DNA of 64,000 nucleotides from an uncultured Myxococcales bacterium (GTDB lineage Bacteria > Myxococcota_A > UBA9042 > DTJE01), in assembly GCA_903847405.1 (NCBI GenBank), contig CAINDP010000075.1, forward strand, positions 1 to 64,000, read 5' to 3'. The notes under the pieces were generated by a model. The model did no database searches and was not told where the DNA came from. It saw nothing but the letters and a program-made list of their open reading frames with translations. Position 1 is the first letter of the stretch. Each line of letters begins with the position of its first letter. Shown in pieces: positions 11,690 through 21,598 of the stretch. Position numbers and translations under genes: made by a program.

Positions 11690-11815
11690 CTCTCGATGCC
11701 TGCGGGGTTAGCTGACGGGCTCGGGCCGAGAAGTGCCCTACGCCATTACCGGCGATGCGCCCCTGGACCCGCCCCGAAGGACGGGTCCCGATTGGGTCCC
11801 CCGCTTCCGGTTTCC
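11690..11815 (-). ncRNA. ydaO-yuaA class c-di-AMP riboswitch in the permease leader
   Basis: Reading the minus strand, the leader has GGGGGACCCAA (11802-11792) and, about 75 nt later, TAGGG followed by CCCGTCAGCTAACCCCGC (11719-11702) and AGGC. These are the signature blocks of the ydaO-yuaA riboswitch, and GCGGGG / CCCCGC can pair as the closing stem. In studied bacteria this RNA binds c-di-AMP and turns off K+ transporters and cell-wall hydrolases. Further hairpins (CTCCC/GGGAG near 11665-11677) and the GGAGG sites before the ATG could form the expression platform. The exact ends are approximate. Confidence 0.88.
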
Positions 11816-11909
11816 CGGAATTCGGCAGGGCGGAGTATGCGCCTGCTGTTTCGCGGAATGCAAGAGTCGCGGGAGGGAGTCCTTGATGGGCGGGGACAAA
11901 CCCGGGAAC

Positions 11910-13166
11910 CTAGCGCTGGGGAGCCCGCCCGGTCCCGGCCACGCCGGACGCGACCTGGGTCCCGGCGGCATACCCGGTGCTCCAGGCAATCTGCAGGTTG
12001 TAGCCGCCCCGGGGGCCGTCGACGTCCAGGACTTCCCCCGCGAACAGGAGCCCCGGCACCAGGCGCGATTCCATCGTGCCCGGGTGGACCTGCGACGTGT
12101 CGACGCCGCCCAGGGTCACCACGGCTTCGTCGTATCCGCGGGTTCCGGTGACCTTCAGCGGCAGCCCCTTCAGCAGCGCCGCTGCCGCCTTGCGACGGGC
12201 CGCGGGCAGGCGGGCCACGGGACCGTCCCCGTCGGGCAGCGCCAGGATCGCCAGGCGCTGGGCCAGGCGCTCCGGAACGAAGGCCCGCAGCAGGGACTTG
12301 AGGTGGCGCGTGCCTTCCCGGGATGCGGCGGCGGCCAGATCCCCGTCCACGTCCGCCAGCGAGCGCCCCGGAACCAGATCCACGGCCAGGTCCACGGGCC
12401 CGTCGTCCAGCCAGCGGACGATGCCCCGGCTGCCTTCCAGCGCCACGGGCCCCGACAGGCCGAAGTGGGTGAACAGCAGGGAGCCGCGGACCTCGACGGC
12501 CCGTTTCCCCTGGCGGAACCGCCCCACCACGTCCTCGATGCCGACGCCCGACAACTCGCGCAGCCACGCCGGATGCGCCACCAGGGGCACCTCGCCGGGC
12601 CGCGGCGGCACGATCCGGTGCCCCAGGGCCGCCGCAAGGTCATAGCCGTCGCCCGAGGAGCCCGTGGCCGGGACCGAACGCCCTCCCGTCGCCAGGACCA
12701 CCCGGCCGGCCTCCAGGACCGCGTTCCCCGCCACGACCTGCAGGCCGCCGCGCACCGGCCGGATCGTCGTCACCCGGGACTCGTACCGCACCTCGACGTG
12801 CCACCGCTGGACCGCCGCCTCCAGGGCCCGCAGGACGTCCAGCGCCCGGCCCGAAGCGGGGAAGCACCGTCCGTCGGCCTCCCGCAGCGTCGGCACGCCC
12901 AGTTCCCGGAACCACGCCCGGGTCGCGACCGGGTCGAACCGGCCCAGGGCGTTGTGCAGGAAGCGCGCCGACGGTCCGCAGTCCGCGACGAACGACGTCG
13001 CGTCCCGATCGACGGTGATGTTGCAACGCCCTCCGCCGGTCAGCAGCAGCTTGCGTCCGGCCCGGGGGCCCCGTTCCAGCAGCAGCACCTTGGCGCCCAG
13101 CGACGCCGCACGGATCGCCGCCGTCATTCCCGCCGCACCGCCGCCGATGATGATCCCGTCGAACAT
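11910..13166 (-). CDS. HI0933-family NAD(P)/FAD-dependent oxidoreductase
   Basis: A 418-residue flavoprotein. The N-terminal Rossmann motif GGGAAG (residues 8-13) is followed by GRKLLLTGGGRCNIT, a hallmark of the HI0933/BaiN-like family. The C-terminal GRGGYN-like segment appears as PRGGYNLQIAWSTGYAAG. Members bind FAD tightly. Their physiological substrate is mostly unknown, though one relative reduces bile-acid double bonds. The gene ends about 95 bp before the riboswitch on the same strand, so read-through into the permease leader is possible. The start ATG at 13166 is well placed for the Rossmann fold. Confidence 0.93.
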   Translation of the reverse strand: MFDGIIIGGGAAGMTAAIRAASLGAKVLLLERGPRAGRKLLLTGGGRCNITVDRDATSFVADCGPSARFLHNALGRFDPVATRAWFRELGVPTLREADGRCFPASGRALDVLRALEAAVQRWHVEVRYESRVTTIRPVRGGLQVVAGNAVLEAGRVVLATGGRSVPATGSSGDGYDLAAALGHRIVPPRPGEVPLVAHPAWLRELSGVGIEDVVGRFRQGKRAVEVRGSLLFTHFGLSGPVALEGSRGIVRWLDDGPVDLAVDLVPGRSLADVDGDLAAAASREGTRHLKSLLRAFVPERLAQRLAILALPDGDGPVARLPAARRKAAAALLKGLPLKVTGTRGYDEAVVTLGGVDTSQVHPGTMESRLVPGLLFAGEVLDVDGPRGGYNLQIAWSTGYAAGTQVASGVAGTGRAPQR

Positions 13167-13233
13167 GGTTGCTGGACTACCAGAACCGGCGCCTCCCGGC
13201 AAGGGCACGACCCGCGCGCCCCATCGACCTGCC

Positions 13234-13410
13234 GAAAATGGGGACAGACACCGATTTCCCCAGGCGCCAGACGCGGCCTGTTGGGATGCGGACTTACCAG
13301 TGTAATGGTGCCGACCACCGTTTCCATCCTCCTGATTTCCAAAGTGCCGGTTGTCGTCCGTTGGCTGTGGGAACGCCGACATACGAATATCGGCGGCGGT
13401 CCCAATTTTC
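13234..13410. repeat. REPIN/MITE-like element, copy 1 (family B, degenerate right arm)
   Basis: The left arm carries GGGGACAGACACCGATTT (13240-13257). A degenerate inverted copy lies at 13386-13410 (19 of 25 positions match). The span is 177 bp, nearly equal to the second copy at 21427-21600 (174 bp). The interior is less GC-rich than its surroundings and contains ACCAGTGTAATGG. It occupies most of the 333-bp gap between the flavoprotein gene and the topoisomerase-helicase gene; the rest holds only the promoter listed next. Confidence 0.65.
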
Positions 13411-13452
13411 GGCGCTGCGCCCTTGCCGCCGGGCCCGTGAAACACCCGCGCG

Positions 13453-13481
13453 TTGCGGTCGATTGTCCCTCCGACTACACT
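13453..13481 (+). promoter_or_regulatory. Candidate sigma-70 promoter for the TopB-RecQ gene
   Basis: TTGCGG and TACACT with a 17-bp spacer, 18 bp before the GTG start. Consensus-based. Confidence 0.4.
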
Positions 13482-13499
13482 CCGCCGCGGGAGGCCGTC

Positions 13500-16400
13500 G
13501 TGTCCGTCGTCGTCATCGCTGAAAAGCCCTCGGTCGCACGGGATCTGGCCAATGTGCTGGGCGCGTCGAAACGCGTCAACGCGGCCCTCGTGGGCAACGG
13601 CTACGTCGTCACCTGGGCCATCGGGCACCTGGTCGGCATCGCCGAGCCCGGCGCCATGAATCCCGACTGGAAGCCCTGGCGCTTCGATCGCCTGCCCATG
13701 CTGCCGAAAGACTTCCTGCTGAAGGCCATCGAGCGGACGAAGTCCCACTTCGACGACGTGGCCGCCCTGCTGACCGCCCCGGACGTCGAAAGCATCGTCT
13801 GCGCGACCGATGCCGGGCGCGAAGGCGAGTTGATCTTCCGGTACATCGTCAAGGTGGCCGGCTGCGACCGCCCCGTGCAGCGCCTGTGGATCAGTTCGCT
13901 GACGCCCGAGGCCATCAAGGAAGGCTTCGCCAGCCTCCGCCCGGGCGGCGACTACGACAACCTGGGACGGGCCGCCGAGGCCCGGGGCCGGGCGGACTGG
14001 CTGGTCGGCATGAACCTCAGCCGCGCCTACAGCCTGCGGTTCGGCGGCCAGGGCGAAACGCGCAAACTGCTGTCGGTCGGGCGGGTCCAGACCCCGACGC
14101 TGGCCATGATCGTCGAACGGGAAACCACGATCCGCGACTTCGTGCCCGAGGTGTACCACGAGGTGGTCGCGACCTTCGGCGAGGCCGCCGATTCCTACCG
14201 GTCCACGTGGTTCGATCCTACCCGGGCGGCGACCGAGGGCGAGGCCCGGAACGCCCAACGCCTGCCCGCCGAGCCGGCCGAGGCCGAGGCCATCCGCGCC
14301 CGCGTCCTGCAGCAGAACGGCGAGGTGGTGTCGCTGTCCGGCGCCGACCGCAACCAGGCCCCTCCCCTGCTGTACGACCTGACCGAACTGCAGCGCCACG
14401 CGAACCGCCTGTATGGCCTGACCGCGAACAACACCCTGGCCGCGGCCCAGGCCCTGTACGAAAAGCACAAACTGCTGACCTACCCCCGTACCGATTCCCG
14501 ACACCTGACGAAGGACGTGGCCGCGCGCATCAAGGAAGTCACCGACGTCATCCGGAAGTACTACGGCGACGCGGTGGCGGCGGGAACCGGGACGCGCCCC
14601 CTGTCGCCGCGCTTCGTGGACGACGCCAAGGTCACCGACCACCACGCCATCCTGCCGACCTCCGTGGACCCCCACGGCAAGGCGATGTCGGTGGACGAGG
14701 AGCGGGTGTACGACCTGGTGTGCCGGCGCCTGCTGATGTGCTGGCACGGCGACCACAAGACGCGCGTGACCACGGTGGTGACCCGGGTGACGACCCCGGA
14801 CGCCACGGACCACTTCCGGGCCTCGGGAACGGTCGTGACGCAGGTCGGGTGGAAGGTCCTGGACGTCGGCGGCGGGCGGGCGGACAAGGCCGATGCCAAG
14901 GCCAAGGGGAAGAAGAAGGCGGCGAAGGCGGCGGTCCCCGAGGGGGAGGCCCCGGCCGAGGCTGAGGAGAAGCCCGACGATGCCGCGGAAGGTCGCCTGC
15001 CCGACGGGCTGTGCGAAGGACAGGTGCGGGTCGTCACGGCCTGCGAGGCCCAGCGCAAGGAAACCACGCCGCCCAAGCGCCTGACGGACGCCAGCCTCCT
15101 GACCGCCATGGAAACCGCGGGCAAGACGCTGGACGACCGGGAACTGGAAGAGGCCATGAGCGAGCGGGGCCTGGGCACGCCCGCCACGCGCGCCGCGACA
15201 CTGGAGACGCTGATTTCCCGGGGCTACGTCGAGCGGAAGGGGAAGTCCCTGCGGGCCACCGACGACGGGATCGCGCTGATCGACGTGGTACACGAAAAGG
15301 TCAAGAGCCCCGCCATGACCGGCGAGTGGGAACTGCTGCTGAAGCGCATGGAACAGGGCCAGGGCAGTTTCGAAACGTTCATGGACGGCATCGAGCGTTA
15401 CGTGATCGAGGTCGTCGGCGCGATCAAGGGCATGCGGCGGATGGGCAGCGGCCCCGCCGAACCGGCCACGACGACCGGGGTCCGCGCGCCGACGGCACCG
15501 ACCGGCGTGCGCACCACCGCGGCGGCGCCACAGCCAACGTCGCAGCAGCAAACGCCGCAGCAGCCATCGCAGCCCCAGCGCGCGCCGCAGGAACCGTCGC
15601 CGCAGCCACCGCCGTCGCAGACACCCCCGCCGCCGGCACCCCCGCCCGACCTGGCCACGCTGCTGCGCGAGCAGTTCGGATTCGCCGCCTTCCGCGAGGG
15701 CCAGGAGGAGGTCTGCTGCGCGGTGACCGCCGGCCGGGACGCCCTGGTCGTCATGCCCACGGGCCGCGGCAAGTCCTTGTGCTACCAGTTGCCCGGCATC
15801 GCCCGGGGCGGCACGACCCTCGTCGTCAGCCCCCTGATCGCGCTGATGGAGGACCAGGTCTCCAAGCTGAAGGCCCGGGGCCTGCGCGCCGAGCGGATCC
15901 ACTCGGGACGGACGCGCGAGGACAGCCGAGCCGCCTGCTTCGACTACCTGAACGGCCGCCTGGACTTCCTGTTCATCGCGCCCGAGCGCCTGTCCGTGCC
16001 GGGCTTCCCCGAGATGCTGGCCAAGCGGCGCCCGACCCTGGTGGCCGTGGACGAGGCCCACTGCATCAGCCACTGGGGCCACGACTTCCGGCCGGACTAC
16101 CGGTTGCTGAAGGATCGCCTGCCCCTGCTGATGCCCACGCCGGTGATCGCCCTGACCGCGACCGCCACGACGCGCGTGCAGGACGACATCTGCGAGCAGT
16201 TGAACGTCCCGAAGGCCGGGCGCTATGCCCACGGCTTCCGGCGGGACGATCTGGCCCTGGAAATGGCCGAGCGCCCCATGGCGCGCCGGATGGACGAGGT
16301 CGAAACGGTCCTGGCCGACCCGCGACGTCGTCCGGCCATCGTGTACGCCCCGACGCGCAAGTCCGCCGAGGAGGCCGCGACGCGCCTGGCCGGCAAGTAC

Positions 16401-17684
16401 CGTGCGGCCGCCTACCACGCCGGCCTGGATCCGGCGACCCGGGCCCGCGTCCAGGAAGGGTTCCTGGGCGGCGACCTGGAGGTCATCGTCGCCACCATCG
16501 CCTTCGGCATGGGCGTGGACAAGCCGGACATCCGGACCGTGTTCCACCTGGCCCTGCCGGGCTCCATGGAGGCGTACTACCAGGAAATCGGCCGCGCCGG
16601 ACGGGACGGGAAGGGGGCGCGGGCCATCCTGCTGTACGGCTGGGGCGACCGGAAGGTCCACGAGGGCTTCTTCGAGCGCGACTATCCCCCGGCGACCACC
16701 CTGAAGTCGATCCGCGCCATGGTCCCCAACGACGGCCTGTCCCGCGATCTGCTGGTCCGAACCTGCGGCCTGGAACCGGAGGTCGCGGAAAACGCCATCG
16801 CCAAGTTGTGGATCCACGGGGGCCTGATCGTGGACGGCGACGACGTCGTGAAGCGCGGCGCCACGGGCTGGGAAGCCAGTTACGAATCGATCCGCAGCCA
16901 CCGGGAAGCCCAGATCGACCAGGTGCTGGACCTGGCCCGTTCGGGCGCCTGCCGGATGGCCCAATTGGTGCGCCACTTCGGGGACAAGGCCGGGGGCGCC
17001 TGCGGCAAGTGCGACACCTGCGCGCCACAGGACTGTTCGGTCCGGCACTTCCGGGCGCCCACCGACGCCGAACGGACGGCCATGAACGGCATCCTGAACG
17101 AACTGCAGCACCGCGACGGGCTGGCGACGGGGACCCTGCACCGCAACCTGTTCCCCGACGGACGCATGGAACGCTCGCAGTTCGAGCACCTGATCAGCGC
17201 CATGCAGTTGGCGCGGATCCTGTCGATTTCCGAGGATTCCATGGAGCGCGAGGGCAAGGTGGTCGCGTTCCGGCGGGCCCATCTGGCCCCCGCGTCCCGG
17301 CGACTGGACAGCCTGGAGGACGCCAGCATCCCCATCGAGGAGCGGCCCGAGGGACCGGCCGCCGGCGCGAAGGGCACGCGAAAAGCCAAGGCCGCCACGC
17401 CGCGCCAGAAGGCCGAGTCCGCGACCGCGGGCACCGCCGCACCGATAATCGACGCGGGCGACAAGGGGCTGTTCGAAACGCTGAAGGCCTGGCGCCTGGC
17501 CGCGGCGCGGGACGAGGGCGTCCCGGCGTTCCGGATCCTGACCGACAAGGCGTTGCGGGCGATCGTGGCGGCGCGCCCCCGGACGCTGATGGAGTTGTAC
17601 GGTCTGCCGGGCGTGGGCGGGCGGTTCGTGGAGCGCCGCGGGAAGGAACTGCTGGCCGCGATGGAGCGGGACGAGGCGGGCTGA
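13500..17684 (+). CDS. Topoisomerase III - RecQ helicase fusion protein with HRDC domain
   Basis: One 1394-residue frame without a break. Residues 1-150 are the Toprim domain (AEKPSVARDLA, DAGREGELIFR). Residues 150-670 are the type IA topoisomerase core with catalytic Tyr328 in TYPRTDSR. Residues 680-725 form a Pro/Gln-rich linker. From about 725 comes a RecQ helicase with Walker A TGRGKS near 754-759, DEAH at 851-854 and GRAGRDGK. A zinc-binding CGKCDTC follows near 1170, and an HRDC domain covers the last 80 residues. RecQ and Topo III partner in trans in bacteria and eukaryotes (Sgs1-Top3, BLM-TOP3A) to decatenate DNA and dissolve recombination intermediates; here both activities are covalently joined. 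The start is GTG with GGGAGG six bases upstream. No ATG fits. Confidence 0.95.
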   Translation: MSVVVIAEKPSVARDLANVLGASKRVNAALVGNGYVVTWAIGHLVGIAEPGAMNPDWKPWRFDRLPMLPKDFLLKAIERTKSHFDDVAALLTAPDVESIVCATDAGREGELIFRYIVKVAGCDRPVQRLWISSLTPEAIKEGFASLRPGGDYDNLGRAAEARGRADWLVGMNLSRAYSLRFGGQGETRKLLSVGRVQTPTLAMIVERETTIRDFVPEVYHEVVATFGEAADSYRSTWFDPTRAATEGEARNAQRLPAEPAEAEAIRARVLQQNGEVVSLSGADRNQAPPLLYDLTELQRHANRLYGLTANNTLAAAQALYEKHKLLTYPRTDSRHLTKDVAARIKEVTDVIRKYYGDAVAAGTGTRPLSPRFVDDAKVTDHHAILPTSVDPHGKAMSVDEERVYDLVCRRLLMCWHGDHKTRVTTVVTRVTTPDATDHFRASGTVVTQVGWKVLDVGGGRADKADAKAKGKKKAAKAAVPEGEAPAEAEEKPDDAAEGRLPDGLCEGQVRVVTACEAQRKETTPPKRLTDASLLTAMETAGKTLDDRELEEAMSERGLGTPATRAATLETLISRGYVERKGKSLRATDDGIALIDVVHEKVKSPAMTGEWELLLKRMEQGQGSFETFMDGIERYVIEVVGAIKGMRRMGSGPAEPATTTGVRAPTAPTGVRTTAAAPQPTSQQQTPQQPSQPQRAPQEPSPQPPPSQTPPPPAPPPDLATLLREQFGFAAFREGQEEVCCAVTAGRDALVVMPTGRGKSLCYQLPGIARGGTTLVVSPLIALMEDQVSKLKARGLRAERIHSGRTREDSRAACFDYLNGRLDFLFIAPERLSVPGFPEMLAKRRPTLVAVDEAHCISHWGHDFRPDYRLLKDRLPLLMPTPVIALTATATTRVQDDICEQLNVPKAGRYAHGFRRDDLALEMAERPMARRMDEVETVLADPRRRPAIVYAPTRKSAEEAATRLAGKYRAAAYHAGLDPATRARVQEGFLGGDLEVIVATIAFGMGVDKPDIRTVFHLALPGSMEAYYQEIGRAGRDGKGARAILLYGWGDRKVHEGFFERDYPPATTLKSIRAMVPNDGLSRDLLVRTCGLEPEVAENAIAKLWIHGGLIVDGDDVVKRGATGWEASYESIRSHREAQIDQVLDLARSGACRMAQLVRHFGDKAGGACGKCDTCAPQDCSVRHFRAPTDAERTAMNGILNELQHRDGLATGTLHRNLFPDGRMERSQFEHLISAMQLARILSISEDSMEREGKVVAFRRAHLAPASRRLDSLEDASIPIEERPEGPAAGAKGTRKAKAATPRQKAESATAGTAAPIIDAGDKGLFETLKAWRLAAARDEGVPAFRILTDKALRAIVAARPRTLMELYGLPGVGGRFVERRGKELLAAMERDEAG

Positions 17685-17701: not shown

Positions 17702-20158
17702 CTACTTGCAGCCCTGCGTGCGGGTGTCCCCGCCGGAACCGGCGCAACCGATCCCGATGAATCCCGAGCAATCCGTGGACCAGTCACCGCTGCCGCCGCA
17801 CCCGGGGACGGTCGTGGTCCACCCCTCGCGCGCGATGCCGCAACTGAGGAATTCGCCCTTGCACCCGACCAGGCTGCGGTACTGGAAGTCCTCGTACGTG
17901 TTGCAGTCGTAGTCCCAGGTTCCGCAGGCGTTCTTGGACGGGAAGTAGGCCGACTGGTTCGGGAAGACGTTCGGGTCCCGGTCGCAGCAGTCCCCCGTGG
18001 CATCCGTCGCGGTATACGGCGAGGCGGGAGTGCACAGGCACTTGTAGTTGTTCGGATCGGGCGAGAATCCGTCGGCGTCCACGTCGATGTAGTACTGGGT
18101 GCACCCGTAACCGCCCTCCTCGTTGACCTGCCCGTCGCAGTCCTCGTCGACGAAGGCCTCGTCGCAAATTTCGGCGGCGCCCGGGCGGATCAGGATGTTG
18201 TTGTCGTTGCAGTCCCCGTCCTTCGCGGCCCGGTAGAACCCGCTGGCCGTCCCGCCGCACCGGCACTGCACCAGCCCGGTCAGGCCGTAGCTGTCGCCGT
18301 CCTTGTCGTAGTAGAACCGGTTGCAGCCGACCGCGCCGTCCTCGTCGATGGAGCCGTTGCAGTTGTCGTCCTTGCCGTTGCACTCCTCGGTGGCGCCCGG
18401 ATACACGTTCGGGTCGCTGTCGTTGCAGTCGTCGTTCCGCAGCGACGTGTACTGGTTGCCCGACTCGCACCGCACCTGGTAATCGGTGCCGCTGCCGAAG
18501 CCGTCGCCGTCGAGGTCCTTGTAGTAGGGCTTTCCTCCGACGGCGATCCCCGGATCGTCGGTCACGCCGTTGCAGTCGTCGTCCTTGCCGTTGCAGATTT
18601 CCACGGCCGAGGGACGGACCAGTTTGTCGTCGTCGTTGCAGTCGCCGCCCACGGTCCCGTCATAGGGCGGCTGGGGCGTGCACAGGCACTTGTAGGTGTC
18701 CGTCTTGCCGAACTTGTCGCGATCGGAATCGAGGTAGTAGATGGTGCAGTTCTGGGCGCCGGGGTTGTCCGTGACGCCATCGCACTCGTCGTCCTTGCCG
18801 TTGCACACTTCGGTGGCGGCGGGGTTGATGCCCGTATTCAGGTCGTTGCAGTCCCCGGGCAGGCGGGCCGTGTACAGGCCCTGGGCCTTGCACAGGCACT
18901 TCACGTCGATGGTCACGCCGTAGGTGTCGCCGTCCTGGTCCGAGTAGTAGGGGATGCAGCCCTGGGCGCCTTCCTCGTCGGTGGCGCCGTTGCAGTTGTC
19001 GTCCTTGTCGTTGCAGACCTCGGTGGCCCCCGTGAAGACCTGCACGTCCGCGTCGTTGCAATCGCCGTCGACGGTGGCCCGGTAGGGCGGGGTCGGGCCG
19101 CACTGGCACTTCGAATCGCCGTCGACGCCGTGGGCGTCCTTGTCCTCGTCCCGGAAATAGGCCAGGCAGTTCAGGGCGTTTTCCTCGTCGGTCGTCCCGT
19201 CGCAGTTGTCGTCCACGCCGTTGCAGGCTTCCTGGGCCGGCGTGCGGCCGGTGCAGGCGATCGCGCCGTCCACGCAATTGTTCTTGGCGGGGCAGGTGCC
19301 CCATTCGGATTCCAGCGTGCAGTCGGTCGCGACGAGGCCCTCGTCGGTCTGGCCGTTGCAGTCGTCGTCGACGGCGTTGCACGTTTCGGCGGCGGGCGTC
19401 GCGGCGGGACAGGCCTCGCTGCAACTGCGGTCGGCGCGGCAGGTGCCGAACGTGTTCTCGACGCGGCATTCCGTGAGGTTGTGCTGCTGCTCGAACTTGG
19501 CGGTGCAGGGGCACTCGGCGCCGGCGGCGGGGCGGCACTGCTTCACGGTGCCCGCATCCCGGACGACGTCGGTGCATTCGAACGCCACCGGGCAGTCGAG
19601 GTCCTCCTCGCAGGACACGCCGCAGAAGGAACCGGTCACGCCGTACGCGACGCACAGGTAGCGGAACCCGGTGGACGCCAGGGTCGGAACGCACTCCTGG
19701 TCCTGCTTGCAGGGCTGGCACAGGCGCGCGAAGGGATCGATGCAGCCGTAGGTCACGTCCGAGCCGGAACCCGCGACCACGCCGCAGTACCAACCCTGGG
19801 GGCAGGGATCGATGCTGCCGCACCCGATGGTGCAGCGCTGGCCCTCCATGGTGTCGATGCACAGGCCGGACACGCAGTCGTTGGGCGACATGCAGGGGCA
19901 ACCCTCGGCGCCCGCCCCGGCGATGCAGGGCGCCTCGATTTCCTCCTGGACCATCCCGTCGGAGGCCAGTTCACCGAACGTGTCCAGGCGTCCGTCGTCC
20001 AGGGGACCCGGATCCGGCTGCCCCTTGTCGGGCGTGATCACGACGTCGATCCCCGGCACCTCGGTTCCCGCGTCCACCGGGTCGGATCCGCCGCCGCCGC
20101 AGGCCGCCAGCGCGGTCACAAGGGCCGCCGCCCACCAGGTCCTGCGCAAGGTCGTCAT
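17702..20158 (-). CDS. MopE-like lipoprotein with repeated calcium/metal-binding motifs
   Basis: An 818-residue lipoprotein: signal peptide with lipobox LAAC, then a Cys-rich region (about residues 70-260) of EGF-like spacing. After that come about seven to eight repeats built on CNGKDDDCNG-type and DGDCND motifs, alternating with FxDxDxDxxG loops. This is the putative metal-binding repeat of MopE/Myxococcota proteins; the acidic DxDxDG loops suggest Ca2+ binding at the cell surface. DNA-level repeats (GTTGCAGTTGTCGTCCTTGC-type units) mirror the protein repeats. A GGAGG site supports the ATG at 20158. An upstream in-frame extension reads through the dispersed repeat and is rejected as a start. 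Confidence 0.9.
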   Translation of the reverse strand: MTTLRRTWWAAALVTALAACGGGGSDPVDAGTEVPGIDVVITPDKGQPDPGPLDDGRLDTFGELASDGMVQEEIEAPCIAGAGAEGCPCMSPNDCVSGLCIDTMEGQRCTIGCGSIDPCPQGWYCGVVAGSGSDVTYGCIDPFARLCQPCKQDQECVPTLASTGFRYLCVAYGVTGSFCGVSCEEDLDCPVAFECTDVVRDAGTVKQCRPAAGAECPCTAKFEQQHNLTECRVENTFGTCRADRSCSEACPAATPAAETCNAVDDDCNGQTDEGLVATDCTLESEWGTCPAKNNCVDGAIACTGRTPAQEACNGVDDNCDGTTDEENALNCLAYFRDEDKDAHGVDGDSKCQCGPTPPYRATVDGDCNDADVQVFTGATEVCNDKDDNCNGATDEEGAQGCIPYYSDQDGDTYGVTIDVKCLCKAQGLYTARLPGDCNDLNTGINPAATEVCNGKDDECDGVTDNPGAQNCTIYYLDSDRDKFGKTDTYKCLCTPQPPYDGTVGGDCNDDDKLVRPSAVEICNGKDDDCNGVTDDPGIAVGGKPYYKDLDGDGFGSGTDYQVRCESGNQYTSLRNDDCNDSDPNVYPGATEECNGKDDNCNGSIDEDGAVGCNRFYYDKDGDSYGLTGLVQCRCGGTASGFYRAAKDGDCNDNNILIRPGAAEICDEAFVDEDCDGQVNEEGGYGCTQYYIDVDADGFSPDPNNYKCLCTPASPYTATDATGDCCDRDPNVFPNQSAYFPSKNACGTWDYDCNTYEDFQYRSLVGCKGEFLSCGIAREGWTTTVPGCGGSGDWSTDCSGFIGIGCAGSGGDTRTQGCK

Positions 20159-20191
20159 GCCGTCCTCCGGGAAAACCAGGGAGTGACCTGC

Positions 20192-20260
20192 CCGAGCACG
20201 CAGGCGGAGGCGACGGGTTTCCACAGGAAACTCTCGCCGCAGCCGTAGTCGCCTCGGGCG
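20192..20260 (+). repeat. Dispersed hairpin repeat, copy 2 (family A)
   Basis: Same layout as copy 1: GAGCACGCAGGCGGAGGCGA, then GTTTCC-ACA-GGAAAC as a perfect inverted repeat, then CTCTCGCCGCAGCCG and GCCTCGGG. It lies in the 148-bp gap upstream of the MopE-like gene, in the 5' leader of that gene. Confidence 0.7.
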
Positions 20261-21426: not shown

Positions 21427-21598
21427 GAAAATGGGGACAGACACCGATTTCCGCGCAAAACGTTGACAGCCTTGGATATCACGACGCTTTCAGCCAAACA
21501 AGGCACATGGAGCCCGTCCCAGGGACTCCATCCTCATCTCACGCGAAAAAATACCGGTGTAAATTCCAGAACAAAGAAATCGGTGTCTGTCCCCATTT

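Follow-up and report, generated by a model that had tools for sequence, protein, structure and literature searches.

The window analysed here, a stretch of 64,000 nucleotides from an uncultured Myxococcales bacterium, encodes a genuine single-chain topoisomerase III-RecQ helicase. As the earlier note on this DNA had proposed, one unbroken frame joins a type IA topoisomerase core to a RecQ helicase: it runs from a GTG at 13500 to a stop at 17682-17684 through 1,394 uninterrupted codons, with Pfam domains on both sides of the junction in the order Toprim, Topoisom_bac, DEAD, Helicase_C, RecQ_Zn_bind and HRDC (Table 1). Across the linker between the two halves, G+C at third codon positions is 0.84-0.98 in the same frame, a coding-like pattern in the window sequence. 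The start first proposed, preceded by a Shine-Dalgarno-like motif, is the one we prefer, since the longer frame (11733-17684) is an upstream extension devoid of domain support. Both halves are under strong purifying selection (dN/dS of 0.12-0.17 for the topoisomerase and RecQ halves alike, measured against two congeners), and the linker is fast-evolving.

Table 1. Features of the fusion gene and its protein (positions in the window)
Feature	Position	Strand	Basis and remarks
Shine-Dalgarno-like GGAGG before the GTG start	13490..13494	+	Sequence reading
Topo III-RecQ fusion gene	13500..17684, stop included	+	1,394 aa, GTG start; translation, Pfam, NCBIfam, kept in 61 genomes
Toprim domain, aa 4-133	13509..13898	+	Pfam; invariant E8, D104, E108, E110
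Type IA topoisomerase core, aa 152-629	13953..15386	+	Pfam PF01131 (Topoisom_bac), E 1e-102
Catalytic Tyr328	14481..14483	+	Aligned with E. coli TopB Tyr328 (PDB TopB)
Low-complexity Lys/Ala/Glu insert in topoisomerase core, aa 459-497	14874..14990	+	Predicted disordered, pLDDT <50
Pro/Gln/Thr/Ala-rich linker, aa 646-716	15435..15647	+	Composition
RecQ helicase lobe 1 (DEAD), aa 733-894	15696..16181	+	Pfam; invariant columns
Walker A PTGRGKS	15756-15776	+	In lobe 1
DEAH	16050-16061	+	In lobe 1
RecQ helicase lobe 2 (Helicase_C), aa 938-1037	16311..16610	+	Pfam
Possible extra winged-helix-like module, about aa 1060-1119	16677..16856	+	AlphaFold secondary structure
Zinc site C1151, C1168, C1171, C1174	16950..17021	+	Pfam RecQ_Zn_bind PF16124 (aa 1129-1174)
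RQC-like winged helix, about aa 1189-1262	17064..17285	+	AlphaFold, RecQ catalytic-core matches
HRDC domain, aa 1322-1387	17463..17660	+	Pfam PF00570, E 2e-18

The N-terminal half is a complete type IA topoisomerase, as had been claimed, and it belongs with TopB by its Toprim domain, its core, its catalytic tyrosine and its scores to the NCBIfam models (523 bits to topB TIGR01056, with a cut-off of 516, and 641 bits to PRK07726, with a cut-off of 597). E8, D104, E108 and Tyr328 are invariant across 27 aligned topoisomerase halves of fusions, and a motif count finds the Toprim motif DAGREGE of the fusion in most of the stand-alone TopBs sampled. The AlphaFold model of this half (mean pLDDT 85.0) has its best PDB matches in E. 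coli Topo III, with an E value of 9e-52 and a TM score of 0.78-0.79 by query length, and the predicted fold is nearer to Topo III than to Topo I.

The C-terminal half has every part of the complete RecQ helicase that was initially described: Walker A, DEAH, a four-cysteine zinc site, and an HRDC domain. Its helicase core also contains an aromatic-rich loop. Walker A, DEAH and the four zinc cysteines are invariant in 36 aligned RecQ sequences. The half scores 366 bits to recQ_fam TIGR00614 (cut-off 220) and 466 bits to the recQ equivalog TIGR01389, below its cut-off of 640; by these scores it is a divergent RecQ subfamily. The Pfam RQC model gives no match in a region where the AlphaFold fold shows a winged helix, and the model of this half (mean pLDDT 88.5) has its nearest matches in bacterial RecQ cores and BLM. 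The additional winged-helix-like module that is predicted after lobe 2, ahead of the zinc site, is shared by stand-alone members of the same subfamily.

RecQ-type helicases turn junctions into hemicatenanes, which Topo III resolves by single-strand passage. With the domains and catalytic residues of both halves intact, and with the models of the two halves nearest to E. coli Topo III and to bacterial RecQ cores and BLM, we give a probability of about two in three to the reading that the fusion is a one-chain dissolvase, which would unwind and decatenate recombination or late replication intermediates. In this mechanism the RecQ half, via its zinc, winged-helix and HRDC tail, would bind and unwind junction DNA (double Holliday junctions, D-loops or converging forks) and expose single-stranded, hemicatenated DNA. 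The Topo III half, held close by the tether, would then cut one strand with Tyr328, pass the other strand and reseal the break. The disordered linker would hold the strand-passage gate beside the helicase, both on the same substrate, and the covalent tether would do the job of the protein contacts that Sgs1 or BLM makes with Top3-Rmi1. The expected products are the non-crossover dissolution of recombination intermediates and the decatenation of late replication intermediates. Alternatively, the protein could be a replication enzyme whose main work is clearing precatenanes and, at termination, resolving the converging forks. Such a role has been proposed for E. coli RecQ acting with Topo III in vitro and, at forks, for Topo III (the presence of bacterial Topo III at forks and, in vitro, RecQ-stimulated catenation and decatenation are described in papers cited in PMC7140829 and PMC13244152, as related there), and the decatenation-loop region of the fusion is kept at about its E. 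coli length in the alignment with E. coli TopB. We hold this to be the less likely alternative, with perhaps an outside chance of being right; the same chemistry serves a dissolvase, so that the dissolvase reading stands alongside it.

Part of the tail on which this mechanism would draw is not universal. HRDC is thought to be important for the dissolution of double Holliday junctions by BLM, and it is apparently missing in a subset of fusions such as L267, in which Pfam finds none, and about a dozen others that end early, which weighs against the dissolvase reading. In the family of very large-genome Myxococcota to which L267 belongs (f18, with L269, L270 and relatives), the fusions seem to have lost this domain; there the join of the two enzymes seems to outlive, as far as the sequences tell, a domain thought to guide junction recognition.

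Two details of the junction differ from what was first described. The linker had been put at about 45 residues and measures about 70, of which a stretch of about 55 is rich in proline and glutamine. Also, the RecQ half had been said to take the place of the zinc-finger tail of Topo III, an idea that we rejected because the nearest stand-alone TopBs (frames of 830-880 residues) carry no zinc finger by Pfam. The linker is predicted by AlphaFold to be disordered in its modelled portion, and its estimated length among relatives ranges from 13 to 288 residues. A long, disordered and unconserved linker is what one would expect if the fusion were one of convenience, a way of making equal amounts of two enzymes that act independently and are not mechanistically coupled; the existence of stand-alone RecQs in the subfamily fits that idea too. 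Against it, the fused state has been kept across two phyla from one origin, and both functions are present or absent together in the window's family (see below), and we consider it improbable.

The same linker bears on a comparison with reverse gyrase, a known covalent fusion of an SF2 helicase and a type IA topoisomerase (PMC8185306) in which, by analogy, ATP hydrolysis by the helicase would drive directional supercoiling by the topoisomerase half. In reverse gyrase, however, the helicase comes first, and the parts specific to that enzyme are missing from the fusion, which scores 97 bits to TIGR01054 against a cut-off of 472; domain order and score rule out an identity as reverse gyrase. A linker so long, so disordered and so variable in length is moreover unlike a rigid latch-coupled machine, and the lineages bearing the fusion are, to our knowledge, not known as hyperthermophiles. 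A machine that merely works in the manner of reverse gyrase is thus, in our estimation, very improbable.

Homologues with both domains were sought and their lineages mapped, as the earlier note had suggested. In all, 61 genomes were verified to carry the fusion in a single frame: 39 are Myxococcota (10 family codes) and 22 are Acidobacteriota, the latter assigned from record titles and from class sampling around one such record. This count comprises 60 that remain after near-identical copies were merged and shortened duplicates set aside, plus one verified merged copy (L221/G151). Nine genomes of the window's own family carry it, including the source genome, and in a tenth it is split at contig ends; it also occurs in two other families of the class, in 28 further Myxococcota genomes and in the 22 Acidobacteriota. 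Among the matches listed, and counting long frames, it is found in at least 39 of 379 sampled Myxococcota genomes and at least 21 of 250 in the Terriglobia sample. On plasmids, the 5,000 best-scoring records contained no match that spans 80% of the query. An assembly error or frameshift joining two genes was a concern given that the source genomes are mostly fragmented assemblies. It is refuted by the recurrence of the same single frame in 61 independent genomes, including well-assembled ones in which the fusion lies on contigs of 13.2 Mb (L267) and 6.2 Mb (L206); the lone case of an apparent split (L222) is due to N bases inside the linker. We regard the chance of an artefact as practically nil. 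By sequence comparison, the covalent fusion is conserved and ancient.

The source genome has two type IA topoisomerases, the fusion and a 779-residue TopA (763 bits to topA_bact), and its one RecQ-family match above cut-off is the fusion gene; profile searches with family models found no separate topB or recQ in it, a check that the earlier note had called for, and the fusion is the sole Topo III and sole RecQ found. In the fusion genomes of the window's family, some of them incomplete, there is likewise no topB and no RecQ other than the fusion. Three close relatives in that family (G005, G006 and G007) and one genome of a sister family (G013) have neither a Topo III nor a RecQ-family match at the thresholds used, which reflects either joint loss or incomplete assemblies; taken as joint loss, it speaks for the dissolvase reading, as does the union of the single topB and single recQ of the source genome in one gene. 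Elsewhere, exceptions occur: G019 carries further RecQs, and some genomes of family f39 have a second, stand-alone topB. Furthermore, the coupling of Topo III and RecQ is not indispensable, because a stand-alone RecQ of the subfamily persists in several lineages that have no fused topoisomerase half, and this counts against the dissolvase reading.

In a maximum-likelihood tree, all 33 fused topoisomerase halves group in a single clade, with support of 100/100 and in 100% of bootstrap trees. None of the 26 stand-alone TopBs sampled from the phylum falls inside it, and therefore the fusion had a single origin, from which it spread. The Acidobacteriota fusions sit in two places among those of Myxococcota, which suggests transfer of the fusion between phyla. 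A single origin and persistence in two phyla, together with purifying selection on both halves, favour the dissolvase reading. The RecQ halves share one deep RecQ subfamily (100/100) with stand-alone RecQs that have their C-terminal layout; stand-alone RecQs of Terriglobia are nested among the Acidobacteriota fusions with support values of 98/96 and 95/90, and the stand-alone RecQs of families f3 and f12 group with family f1 (95/96). This tree would be most simply accounted for by a single fusion, after which the topoisomerase half was lost several times. The free tree mixes stand-alone RecQs among the fused ones, but a single clade of fused RecQ halves is not rejected by the AU test (p 0.15), so that the direction of this history is tentative. 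Family f12 occupies a particular position: its stand-alone TopBs (L170, L165, L167, L163 and L171) are sister to all fused Topo IIIs (96/94) and its RecQs fall near the fusions of family f1, a placement that would represent either a pre-fusion state or an ancient split.

The neighbours of the fusion gene (ferritin, amino-acid permease, oxidoreductase, MopE-like, ApbE, Tgt and QueA) give no functional hint, so that we discarded the idea of a recombination operon; a role in replication finds no hint in the MopE-like, tgt, queA and ferritin genes either. The adjoining MopE-like protein (17702-20224, minus strand) has six Cu-binding_MopE motif stretches; most genomes examined from the window's family have a relative of it beside the fusion, though other neighbours change. 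The sequence TGGGGACAGACACCGATT occurs in three perfect intergenic copies (13239-13256 and 21432-21449 on the plus strand, 21578-21595 on the minus strand; chance expectation 0), one of them just upstream of the fusion gene, and is probably an interspersed REP-like element.

Whether RecQ and Topo III are partners in bacteria has been debated since 1999 on the basis of in vitro stimulation, lack of physical contact and contradictory genetics. E. coli TopB and RecQ are each homologous to one half of the fusion and share its catalytic residues, but they are encoded by separate genes and their functional pairing is disputed (PMC7140829, PMC4125114, PMC13244152). The statement of the earlier note that the two normally meet in E. 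coli is therefore contested: no physical interaction between them has been seen (PMC7140829, PMC13244152), and a 2026 genetic study of E. coli concludes that RecG, not RecQ, is the partner of Topo III (PMC13244152), which also weighs against the dissolvase reading. On the other side, the recQ and topB genes of Listeria monocytogenes (L307, NZ_LR134400.1, 2980-6929) are neighbours on a single strand with 23 bp between them, an independent sign of bacterial RecQ-Topo III pairing. The two functions adjoin there as the fusion pairs them, but in separate genes, in reverse order and from other RecQ and TopB lineages. The record in question is labelled a 594-kb plasmid, yet it carries guaB and other housekeeping genes.

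A close likeness is to the RTR complex or 'dissolvasome' (Sgs1-Top3-Rmi1 in yeast, BLM-TOP3A-RMI1 in human cells), in which a RecQ-family helicase with a zinc site, a winged helix and HRDC is coupled to a topoisomerase III; the fusion joins the same two kinds of enzyme, with a winged helix that is predicted. Unlike that complex, the fusion is a single polypeptide, is bacterial and has its topoisomerase half at the N-terminus; the physical linkage of RecQ helicase and Topo III that characterizes RTR is provided by one chain. An engineered yeast Top3-Sgs1 fusion was reportedly studied by Bennett and Wang in 2001 (as cited in PMC3905885). In the literature that we searched by full text we found no description of a natural Topo III-RecQ fusion; other papers could hold one, and the two-domain architecture must already be present in protein databases. 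The fuller proposal, that of an autonomous and putatively RMI1-free single-chain dissolvase present in two phyla after one ancient fusion that was then exchanged between them, is in our view evenly balanced.

The fusion is directly relevant to the debate over whether bacterial Topo III and RecQ form a pair like that of human and yeast cells. Its retention by dozens of species argues strongly, in the 'Rosetta stone' sense, for a functional pair in other bacteria, and a one-chain enzyme of fixed stoichiometry offers material for biochemistry and structure. If the protein is indeed a single-chain dissolvase, the Topo III-RecQ partnership of eukaryotes would exist in bacteria too, against the view based on E. 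coli.
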